NCBI GenBank assembly: GCA_039033415.1
Contig: JBCCCR010000028.1
Location: 1-64,000, forward strand
Source of the DNA: Pseudomonadota bacterium
GTDB taxonomy: Bacteria > Pseudomonadota > Gammaproteobacteria > Xanthomonadales > SZUA-38
Length of the DNA: 64,000 bases
Direction of reading: 5' to 3'
Below, in pieces: positions 6,870 through 56,169 of the stretch. Made by a program: the position numbers and the translations under genes. The notes under the pieces are model-generated. The model searched no databases. It was not told the DNA's origin and was given only the letters and a program-made list of their open reading frames with translations. How positions within the stretch are numbered: position 1 is the stretch's first letter; each line of letters starts with the position of its first letter.

Positions 6870-7871
6870 TTATTTACCTTCCAGAAGTTTCAGCATGACC
6901 GCTTTCTGCACGTGGAGCCGGTTCTCCGCTTCCTCCACCGCTACGCAGTAGTCGGCGTCCATCACCTCATCGGTGGCTTTCACGTTTCGCCGGAGCGGCA
7001 AACAGTGGCTGAACAGCGCGCCGTCGGTCAGCGACATCTTTTTCTGATCGACCATAAAATGCCGGCACTGCTTGCGAAGCGCCCACTCGTCCTGGGGTTT
7101 GCCGTAGTAAGGCAGCGCTCCCCAGCTCTTTGCGTACACCACGTCCTGACCCTGGTAGGCGGCCTCGATGTCGTGCGAAACGGTCAGCTTGCCGCCCGCG
7201 TTTTCCGCATTTTCCTTGGCGGCCCGCATGAAACGTCGATCAAGCAGATACTGCTCCCCCGGACACAGCAGCGTCACGTCCATGCCCATCTTGGTGGCGA
7301 TCATCAGCGCCGAATTGGCCACGGCGGTATTGAGCGGCTTGGGGTGCCAGGTCCAGGTCAGCAGAAACCGGCGACCCCGCACCAGCCCGAGCTTCTCCTT
7401 CAGCGTCAGCATCAGCGCCAGCTCCTGGCACGGATGGACAATGGTCTCCATGTTGATCACCGGGACGGTGGCGTGTTTGGCCACGGCGTTGATCACCGGG
7501 TCCTGCCGATCGTGAGACCAGTCCTTGAACTTCGGAAACGCCCGGATGGCGATCAGATCACAGTAGCGCGACAGCACCGCCGCAACCTCACTCACGTGCT
7601 CTTCAGCGTCGCCGTCCATCACGGCGCCGGGCTCAAATTCGATGCCCCAGGCGTCCTGACCTGGCTGCAGCACCACCGCAATGCCACCCATCTGACCGAT
7701 GCCGACCTGGAAAGACGTCCGTGTACGCATCGAGGGATTCAGAAACAGCAGCGCCACCGATTTACCCATCATGCGTTCATTCACCGGATGCTTTTTGAGC
7801 TCACCCGCCGTCGCCAGCAGGCCGTCGATTTCGCTGGCGGACCAGCTTTCGGTGGACAGAAAGTGTCGCAT
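6870..7871 (-). CDS. argF': N-acetylornithine carbamoyltransferase (AOTCase, ArgF')
   Basis: Transfers a carbamoyl group to N-acetylornithine, giving N-acetylcitrulline. It has the carbamoyl-phosphate loop SMRTRT (residues 47-52), HPCQE, and a C-terminal HCLPLRRNVKATDEV. Two features mark AOTCase rather than ordinary or succinyl-ornithine OTCase: Trp75 in the DAWGIEF loop and Glu90 in MDGDAEEH. Glu90 is equivalent to X. campestris Glu92, which selects acetyl over succinyl substrates. I use the ATG at 7871 (333 residues) because GGAG lies 6 nt upstream; an in-frame TTG at 7886 would lie inside the terminator U-tract. It is the first structural gene of the arginine operon and sits only 13 bp from the attenuator. 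Confidence 0.95.
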   Translation of the reverse strand: MRHFLSTESWSASEIDGLLATAGELKKHPVNERMMGKSVALLFLNPSMRTRTSFQVGIGQMGGIAVVLQPGQDAWGIEFEPGAVMDGDAEEHVSEVAAVLSRYCDLIAIRAFPKFKDWSHDRQDPVINAVAKHATVPVINMETIVHPCQELALMLTLKEKLGLVRGRRFLLTWTWHPKPLNTAVANSALMIATKMGMDVTLLCPGEQYLLDRRFMRAAKENAENAGGKLTVSHDIEAAYQGQDVVYAKSWGALPYYGKPQDEWALRKQCRHFMVDQKKMSLTDGALFSHCLPLRRNVKATDEVMDADYCVAVEEAENRLHVQKAVMLKLLEGK

Positions 7872-7884
7872 CGTTTTCTCCGGC

Positions 7885-7915
7885 AAAAAAAAACCCAGCC
7901 GTCGGGCTGGGTTTT
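7885..7915 (-). terminator. Attenuator terminator in front of the arginine operon
   Basis: On the minus strand AAAACCCAGCC (7905-7915), loop CGAC (7901-7904) and GGCTGGGTTTT (7890-7900) form an 11-bp stem ending in a run of nine T (7885-7893). It looks like a strong Rho-independent terminator. It lies 13 nt before the argF' start codon and 30 nt after the leader peptide stop, so it would block the operon it precedes. Its 5' arm can instead pair with leader sequence 7944-7954. Confidence 0.9.
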
Positions 7916-7975
7916 GATGTTTTTGTTTAACTGCCTATGCAGCCATCACCCAGCACGCCGTTGGCTCAAACGGCG
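7906..7975 (-). promoter_or_regulatory. Pause hairpin and antiterminator of arginine attenuator
   Basis: Two mutually exclusive pairings are visible in the minus-strand RNA. First, 7969-7975 (CGCCGTT, inside the arginine codons) pairs perfectly with 7956-7962 (AACGGCG) around a 6-nt loop, a typical 1:2 pause stem. Second, GCTGGGTGATG (7944-7954) pairs with CATC plus ACCCAGC (7906-7919) over 11 bp with a 3-nt AAA bulge, consuming the 5' arm of the terminator. A ribosome stalled on the arginine run (7970-7984) would disrupt the first stem and leave 7944-7954 free to antiterminate. A ribosome reaching the stop codon at 7946 would cover it and allow termination. Confidence 0.8.
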
Positions 7976-8044
7976 GCGGCGGCGAAGCGCGGCTTGAATC
8001 ACAGGGGCCTTCAGCTGGGCCGGAAAGTGAACATGTGCAGTCAT
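7946..8044 (-). CDS. Arginine leader peptide (attenuator control peptide)
   Basis: A 32-codon reading frame between lhr and argF'. Its C-terminal part reads LRRRRRLSQRRAG and stop: five consecutive arginine codons (CGC x4, CGT; 7970-7984) and two more (CGT and CGG; 7955-7960), so 7 of the last 12 residues are arginine. The stop codon lies in the antiterminator segment. The ATG overlaps the lhr stop (CCATGA), so it could be translated by reinitiation from lhr or, if transcription starts at its own promoter, on a leaderless or nearly leaderless mRNA; no good Shine-Dalgarno is present. By analogy with hisL, trpL and ilvL it should sense charged tRNA-Arg. It has no expected function as a protein. 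Confidence 0.85.
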   Translation of the reverse strand: MTAHVHFPAQLKAPVIQAALRRRRRLSQRRAG

Positions 8045-55892: not shown

Positions 55893-55978
55893 CAGACACT
55901 CCTTGAATATCTGCCGGACTGCCAACATGCGACAGCCCGGCTGCGGCCGGTTATACGGAGGCGGGGAAAACAGGCGAG

Positions 55979-56108
55979 CCCATTCCTACGCCGGCACTAA
56001 CCGGTTCAGGTTCTAAGGGTTCGCGCGTGCGCATCTCAGGCTGCCGTCGCGCTGCGCGGAGGGCCTCAAAGGCATTCACGCAGCGGAGCGGTCTCGCCAC
56101 CCCTTGGG
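55979..56108 (-). promoter_or_regulatory. TPP riboswitch (THI element)
   Basis: The minus strand contains the conserved TPP aptamer core: CAAGGGGTGG (P1/P2 5' side) and CTGAGATGCGC, with a long P3 insertion between. Then come ACCCTTAGAACCTGA and ACCGGTTAGTGCCGGCG (P4/P5), and finally TAGGAATGGG. AAGGGT pairs with ACCCTT (P2) and CCCA with TGGG (P1). About 85 nt of expression platform with a CCGGC/GCCGG hairpin separates it from the receptor ATG. Thiamine pyrophosphate should turn the operon off. Confidence 0.93.
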
Positions 56109-56169
56109 AAACGAGCGTTAACGATAAAGGTTTTGACGGAGAAGGTCGATCCCCGGCTGGGCGCAGCGC

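Follow-up and report, generated by a model that had tools for sequence, protein, structure and literature searches.

A probable ribosome-mediated arginine attenuator in front of the argF' operon of Xanthomonadales

Ribosome-mediated attenuators are known from the enteric his, trp, leu, ilv, thr and phe operons, and the synthesis of arginine serves as a standard example of control by a repressor. Here, we analyzed a stretch of 64,000 nucleotides (the window; positions 1 to 64,000 of contig JBCCCR010000028.1, assembly GCA_039033415.1) from a gammaproteobacterium of the order Xanthomonadales, in which the leader of the arginine gene argF' is very probably a ribosome-mediated, arginine-specific transcription attenuator controlling the argF'GE'(A/B)CH operon. 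Like the enteric attenuators, this leader combines an open reading frame (ORF) that carries the control codons, pairings of the 1:2, 2:3 and 3:4 kind, a stop codon placed so that the antiterminator is blocked, and a terminator before the first gene; unlike them, it would sense arginine, its predicted transcript start lies at or close to the leader ATG, and its pathway is elsewhere controlled by ArgR. The fungal arginine attenuator peptide, which is eukaryotic, acts on translation and senses free arginine, resembles the present leader in that a short conserved upstream peptide answers, or would answer, to arginine, and differs from it in having no terminator.

Among bacterial systems, PMC6245113 states that E. 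coli uses attenuation for no arginine gene or operon. In the Salmonella speF leader, ribosome pausing at consecutive Arg codons of orf34 ties expression to the arginine supply (PMC6386406); unlike the leader studied here, orf34 acts on an ornithine decarboxylase through Rho, access to the ribosome-binding site and RNase G, with no intrinsic terminator of an arginine operon. The Pseudomonas carA leader is reported to encode a leader peptide in P. aeruginosa and to give a short transcript of the 5' untranslated region in P. syringae (P32 RNA); it differs in that PMC4997734 describes pyrimidine-linked attenuation with ArgR present, and we saw no Arg-codon switch in that description. A homologous leader before argF' is already listed in Rfam as RF02242 (Xoo5) for loci of one family (f2), but under the label of a small RNA (sRNA) and with a model that ends short of the terminator. 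Searches of the open-licence PubMed Central literature turned up no bacterial arginine-operon attenuator; an earlier prediction in subscription papers on proteobacterial attenuation is possible.

Parts and pairings of the argF' leader

An initial annotation of the window had placed an attenuator at 7871-8044, comprising a 32-codon leader peptide with five consecutive Arg codons and a further Arg pair, a hairpin across these codons, an 11-bp antiterminator that shares the 5' arm of a terminator, and a stop codon at 7946 within the antiterminator segment, with nine U ending 13 nt before the argF' ATG. All of these parts were recovered at their positions, by direct reading of the sequence or by folding, and are listed below together with a predicted promoter.

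8080-8075, minus strand: -35-like hexamer TTGCAC, 17 nt ahead of the -10-like hexamer (from a promoter-scoring script)
8057-8052, minus strand: -10-like hexamer CATATT, ending 7 nt ahead of the leader ATG; predicted transcript start at or near this ATG
8044-7946, minus strand: ORF of the leader peptide, 32 codons and a TGA stop, reading MTAHVHFPAQLKAPVIQAALRRRRRLSQRRAG (direct reading of the sequence)
7984-7970, minus strand: control codons, the five consecutive Arg codons CGC CGC CGC CGC CGT
7975-7969 paired with 7962-7956, minus strand: segment 1:2 hairpin spanning the Arg codons, -10.3 kcal/mol (folding)
7960-7955, minus strand: later Arg pair CGG CGT, holding the sole CGG codon of the leader
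7954-7944, minus strand: 5' strand of the antiterminator, GCTGGGTGATG, overlapping the stop of the leader ORF
7948-7946, minus strand: leader stop TGA, inside the antiterminator arm
7919-7906, minus strand: antiterminator 3' strand, CATC, AAA bulge, ACCCAGC, common to the terminator 5' arm
7915-7890, minus strand: intrinsic terminator hairpin, 7915-7905 with 7900-7890, 11 bp, loop CGAC, -17.5 kcal/mol
7893-7885, minus strand: run of nine T (U in the RNA), overlapping the stem base, 13 nt from the argF' ATG at 7871

The antiterminator pairs 7954-7948 with 7912-7906 and 7947-7944 with 7919-7916, giving 11 bp around the AAA bulge, and the stretch 7954-7905 folds at -19.6 kcal/mol with the inner hairpin counted in. 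The terminator, which heads a list of 15 terminator-like sites between 900 and 8150, stands between the predicted promoter and the first gene, with no promoter after it; a separate argF' promoter beyond the terminator is unlikely because the T run lies just 13 nt from the argF' ATG. Upstream, the leader ATG overlaps the stop codon of a helicase gene. The window's leader had no Rfam match at gathering score, whether to a T-box, a riboswitch, RF02242 or another described RNA family. The antiterminator-terminator pattern, written with the hexamer of this locus, was found once in the 6.4-Mb genome, and a second attenuator copy was accordingly rejected.

In the mechanism that we propose, RNA polymerase would start at or beside the leader ATG with a ribosome behind it. 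When charged tRNA-Arg is plentiful, the ribosome would reach the UGA at 7948-7946 and cover 7954-7944, so that the antiterminator would be blocked and the terminator at 7915-7890 would end transcription 13 nt ahead of argF'. Under a shortage of charged tRNA-Arg, the ribosome would instead pause within the run of five Arg codons and the antiterminator (7954-7944 with 7919-7906) would form first, so that the operon would be transcribed.

We modeled the choice between the two structures by folding the RNA left free with the ribosome at each Arg codon or at the stop, about 14 nt past the first A-site base being covered. When any of Arg codons 1-5 occupies the A site, the RNA made as far as the terminator arm forms the antiterminator (-19.6 to -20.9 kcal/mol), whereas a ribosome whose A site holds the sixth or seventh Arg codon or the stop covers the antiterminator pairing and leaves the terminator free; the run of five would thus be the controlling position, and not the later pair. 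Across loci, the terminator arm is captured (at least 5 of 6 bases paired) in 144/164 with the ribosome at the last Arg codon, against 33.5 expected in shuffles, and in 21/164 with the ribosome at the stop. The earlier proposal that ribosome position selects the structure is therefore borne out by folding, in the window and across loci, with exceptions in families f2, f3, f4 and f8 that are weighed below.

Conservation among relatives and the distribution of ArgR

The argF' upstream regions were gathered by a family search in the window's order and a further scan, which gave 192 after removal of duplicates (L003 and L061, second copies of the same genomes, are excluded from the terminator, Arg-ORF and relaxed-search counts); families are designated f1 to f12. 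A strict terminator is present in 167/192 regions and a relaxed search adds six. An Arg-rich leader ORF (at least 3 Arg in 6 codons) occurs in 164 of the 167 terminator-bearing loci, compared with 31-36 in shuffles and 43 in reversed sequences. Among the 57 loci whose leaders lack the conserved motif described below, Arg is the clearly enriched residue, and 40 of them have at least 4 Arg in 6 codons versus 0-1 in controls. As in ribosome-mediated attenuators generally, the leaders thus have a small ORF in which codons for the operon's end product are clustered. The pattern that would speak against an attenuator, a stem kept without an Arg cluster, is confined to 3 of the 167 loci, one of which has just 86 nt of upstream sequence. 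In the nearest relative (L002/L144, ArgF' 98% identical) the leader ORF and the RRRRR run are retained, and the arrangement is kept where the preceding ORF differs, e.g. behind ORFs ending DPGxRLRVRVSV-like in f2 and f4 loci. The attenuator had been ascribed to this lineage as possibly new; the element itself stands, but it is not local, as most sampled families of the order carry it, and it comes in two forms that share an RNA architecture and together occupy most argF' loci examined.

The two competing stems change in concert. Where the terminator arm is CCCAGC, GCTGGG lies upstream in 64/83 loci (GCCGGG alone in 6, neither in 13); where it is CCCGGC, GCCGGG lies upstream in 53/78 (GCTGGG without GCCGGG in 5, neither in 20); and both loci with CCTGGC have GCCAGG. 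The rest of the 167 are one CCCGGT arm and three loci without register. In an alignment of 44 leaders of type B, the motif-bearing form described below, all 352 terminator cells (100%) are paired, as are 96.1% of the 308 antiterminator cells, the latter a flattering value in that the alignment holds 44 of 51 non-redundant type-B segments and the seven omitted (L036, L037, L039, L041, L043, L044 and L191) are mostly f3 and f4 loci without a matching antiterminator hexamer; the per-locus folding with a positioned ribosome covers f3 and f4 without that choice of rows. Cells changed on both sides number 27 for the terminator and 14 for the antiterminator, above all 500 shuffles, and pairing falls to 22-63% when the partner is slid by 1-3 columns, although the relatedness of the rows inflates these and the other covariation measures that exceed shuffles. 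Folding and covariation both give an antiterminator and an intrinsic terminator that exclude each other. As it is conserved, covaries and matches a single occurrence of the pattern in the genome, the arrangement is more than chance, and the comparison with related genomes that the initial annotation had suggested turned out in its favor for the Arg-rich ORF and for both stems.

The leader peptides fall into two types. Type A, that of the window's family, mostly of f6-f10, and of Kangiella aquimarina (L219), has Arg clusters such as RRRRR, VVVRRRRP or RRLRRP; in the window and its clade these clusters were seen and a shared peptide motif was not. Type B has a motif around MTSRARR, in 42/45 loci of f2 (Xanthomonadaceae, by Rfam's label), 31/31 of f12 (Rhodanobacteraceae; Dyella, Frateuria), 6/7 of f4 and 3/3 of f3. 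Over 117 type-B loci, the peptide A-R-M-A-[AS]-G-M-T-S-R-A-R-R-P is conserved at the amino-acid level, non-Arg residues included: the first two codon positions show little or no variation, the third varies at Ala-8, Ala-5, Gly-3, Thr-1, Arg1, Ala2 and Arg3, Arg-7 is present in 83% and Met-6 in 81%, and the flanks vary at all three codon positions. Because third positions vary under invariant non-Arg residues, the type-B peptide itself is constrained. This amends the initial annotation: in f2, f3, f4 and f12 the Arg run is replaced by a conserved SRARR peptide, usually followed by Pro. The type-B motif occurs in 154/299 genomes of the order, with one match per listed row, none in the reversed control, and argF' adjoining the match in the loci examined; in a sample of the class it occurs in 4/369 genomes, all of this order, and in 0/364 genomes outside it. 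In an ArgF' tree of 111 of the 150 proteins, whose root and long branches (f11, f10) are unsure, 66 of the 68 rows without the motif form one clade (99/99) with the motif loci around it; label A there means 'not B' and includes attenuator-less loci.

Codon choice in the leaders is restricted. Their Arg codons are nearly all CGC, CGU and CGA, which are read by one tRNA-Arg, whereas CGG is read by another. CGG accounts for 2/192 Arg codons in type A leaders and 1/333 in type B, versus 215/977 and 169/1400 in the respective argF' genes, while CGA is enriched (61/192 versus 68/977 in type A, 108/333 versus 19/1400 in type B); the backgrounds are the argF' genes of 55 (A) and 71 (B) loci, the type-A codons come from 45 loci, and with related rows the tests overstate certainty. 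Since nearly all are CGC, CGU or CGA, the leader probably reports the charging of one tRNA-Arg isoacceptor, which would make these codons a natural experiment on codon choice in attenuators. Type B also has near-fixed TCG (81/82) and CGA (80/82) codons, and a predicted hairpin, UCGCG-NNNN-CG-N-CGA, uses both; codon choice alone was rejected as the explanation of these fixed codons, as the hairpin needs them too and RNA structure and codon choice are not separated. CGA is enriched in type A as well, where the UCGCG...CGA hairpin motif is absent.

Promoter-like pairs tend to end close to the leader start. The distance is 6-10 nt in f1 (3/3), f2 (39/44), f3 (3/3), f4 (7/7), f6 (2/2), f7 (7/12), f8 (1/5), f9 (6/6) and f10 (1/1), with the leader starts of 37 type-A loci picked by hand for this analysis, and in f12 the pair lies 24-30 nt ahead of the leader start in at least 21/30 loci. 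For f2, a promoter gap of 4-9 nt was observed in 31 of 44 loci against 3.5 expected from shuffles.

Arginine operons are usually under ArgR, and the initial annotation had supposed another control here; no ArgR (PF01316) was found in the window's genome, and ArgR control of this operon was rejected on that ground. In the order, ArgR is present in 8/299 genomes, all of family f11 (8 of the 9 sampled), and the 290 genomes outside f11 have no ArgR hit. Conversely, the six f11 argF' upstream regions that were inspected showed no terminator and no attenuator. The best reading of these distributions is that the leader-peptide attenuator would stand in for ArgR in most of the sampled order, a clear case of regulator replacement if so. 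As the f11 ArgF' proteins lie far from the remaining ArgF' in the tree, the contrast is between lineages and is no proven one-step swap. One f11 locus (L228, 177-2794) has an ArgR-like ORF on the minus strand; divergent from it, and directly ahead of argF', lies an aminotransferase-like ORF (by eye, argD).

Several observations weigh against the attenuator. Five CGN codons in a row occur at 6 sites of the window (shuffles average 1.0, and 1/100 of them reaches 6), so that the run is unremarkable there and a significance of the Arg run by itself was rejected; because the run alone is not rare, the case rests on conservation. When the ribosome stalls on Arg 3, 4 or 5, folding of the whole leader to minimum energy gives the terminator form, and hence the switch would have to be kinetic, set by which structure forms first. 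The predicted antiterminator is weak or absent in f3 (0/3), f4 (3/6) and the Marinicella-containing f8 (2/5), is weak in Kangiella (3/6 bases paired), and in 18/44 f2 loci its pairing remains possible when the ribosome sits at the stop. Two of five covariation measures, namely the number of pairs with both partners changed (2 and 1) and further pair types, are not above shuffles. The window's predicted promoter falls below the threshold of the consensus scan and is weak alone, although the same placement in relatives supports it. Finally, 19/192 upstream regions have no terminator even under the relaxed search, and no sampled f9 genome has an ArgR hit.

These 19 regions comprise six from f11, ten f9/Wenzhouxiangella-like, one from f4, one from f5 and one poor argF' match (L095). 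The f9/Wenzhouxiangella-like loci without a recognisable terminator are L074, L075, L076, L079, L085, L166, L179, L185, L189 and L200; among them, an Arg-rich ORF is present in L076, as is a hairpin whose T run is interrupted.

Rival readings and the Xoo5 RNA

The constraint on the type-B peptide raises the possibility, to which we hold only tentatively, that the leader of f2, f3, f4 and f12 acts as an arginine-responsive arrest peptide plus codon counter, standing in for ArgR together with the plain poly-Arg form. The ARMA[AS]GMTSRARRP chain would then contact the exit tunnel and so hold the ribosome, to an extent tuned by tRNA-Arg charging and a slow CGA codon, and related lineages would have reached peptide-sensing and plain poly-Arg solutions within one RNA architecture. 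It is improbable that the leader peptide, in the manner of the fungal arginine attenuator peptide, is a nascent-chain arrest peptide sensing free arginine or a pathway metabolite instead of tRNA charging. Such a peptide would fit the conservation of non-Arg residues in those four families, but the window and its clade have Arg clusters without it, and the leader codons follow one isoacceptor, which fits tRNA sensing. Moreover, judging from the folding, stalling in high arginine would with this geometry raise expression, the wrong way for biosynthesis.

The attenuator reading bears on a described RNA. A short transcript of the homologous leader has been observed in Xanthomonas oryzae, and we count it in favor of the attenuator: PMC3039613 reports sRNA-Xoo5, 124 nt long with its end mapped by 5' rapid amplification of cDNA ends, directly before PXO_00353 (N-acetylornithine carbamoyltransferase). 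The RF02242 model (124 positions) begins 2 nt ahead of the leader ATG in L004 (1237-1360) and stops 6-10 nt short of the terminator; it scores 104-144 bits in 5/5 f2 loci tried and 27 bits, below the cut-off of 50, in the f12 locus L101. Given a 5' end near the leader ATG and a location directly before an argF' homologue, Xoo5 is very probably the released attenuator leader, and an attenuator would explain why this RNA is filed in Rfam as an sRNA. The Rfam label 'Xanthomonadaceae sRNA' itself looks like a mis-annotated leader transcript in f2 loci.

A function of the leader RNA chiefly in trans, with any effect on argF' secondary, would agree with RF02242 and PMC3039613, which treat the Xanthomonas homologue as an independent sRNA, and two points add to those against the attenuator. 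First, besides the 124 nt, the same report gives blot signals of about 100 nt and, confined to early growth, of about 130 nt, whereas 158 nt would be expected for an end at the terminator. Second, its authors say that the sRNA deletions left the expression of flanking genes unaffected, as one would expect of an independent sRNA more than of a leader. We nevertheless regard a mainly trans-acting RNA as very improbable: conservation follows the reading frame of the ORF and the switch beside argF', the genomes with the motif have a single match, beside argF' in the loci examined, and PMC3039613 describes the Xoo deletion mutants, that of Xoo5 included, as unchanged in growth and virulence. The released leader could have a second role besides attenuation. 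The main text of PMC2965389 contains neither 'arginin' nor 'argF'.

Equally little credence goes to a terminator that just ends the helicase transcript, with the Arg run a GC-rich accident and the operon read through or served by another promoter, for although CGN runs are common in the window and the leader ATG overlaps the helicase stop, the arrangement is kept behind other preceding ORFs, Arg-rich ORFs stand at 40/57 versus 0-1, the antiterminator covaries, and the gap from the T run to argF' is too short for a promoter.

The arginine operon and its surroundings

The gene content behind the leader, which had been called an arg operon, was confirmed by family models. The six-gene cluster argF'-argG-argE'-argA/B-argC-argH spans 7871-972 on the minus strand, and its genes are presumably cotranscribed, so that the whole operon would be under leader control.

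7871-6870, minus strand: argF', N-acetylornithine carbamoyltransferase (NF003384, 539 bits versus a cut-off of 288)
6868-5657, minus strand: argG, argininosuccinate synthase (best family PRK04527.1, 577 bits, slightly below the cut-off of 603)
5660-4542, minus strand: argE', acetylornithine deacetylase (NF006439, 356 bits, above the cut-off of 345)
4546-3242, minus strand: acetylglutamate kinase of the Xanthomonas type, argA/B (NF003387, above cut-off)
3254-2286, minus strand: argC (TIGR01850, above cut-off)
2264-972, minus strand: argH (TIGR00838, above cut-off)

The Xanthomonas campestris enzyme corresponding to argA/B is described as a bifunctional synthase-kinase (PMC1865377). Table 4 of PMC3039613 lists a mutant lacking another sRNA, Xoo1, with lower ArgG and ArgF' protein (tabulated ratios 3.25 and 1.7), which may point to a second input into the operon. 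Downstream of argH and in the same direction, the 5' part of a 16S rRNA gene lies at 1-475 on the minus strand, cut by the window edge (RF00177, 418 bits). A thiamine pyrophosphate (TPP) riboswitch is found at 55966-56114 on the minus strand (RF00059, 63.9 bits).
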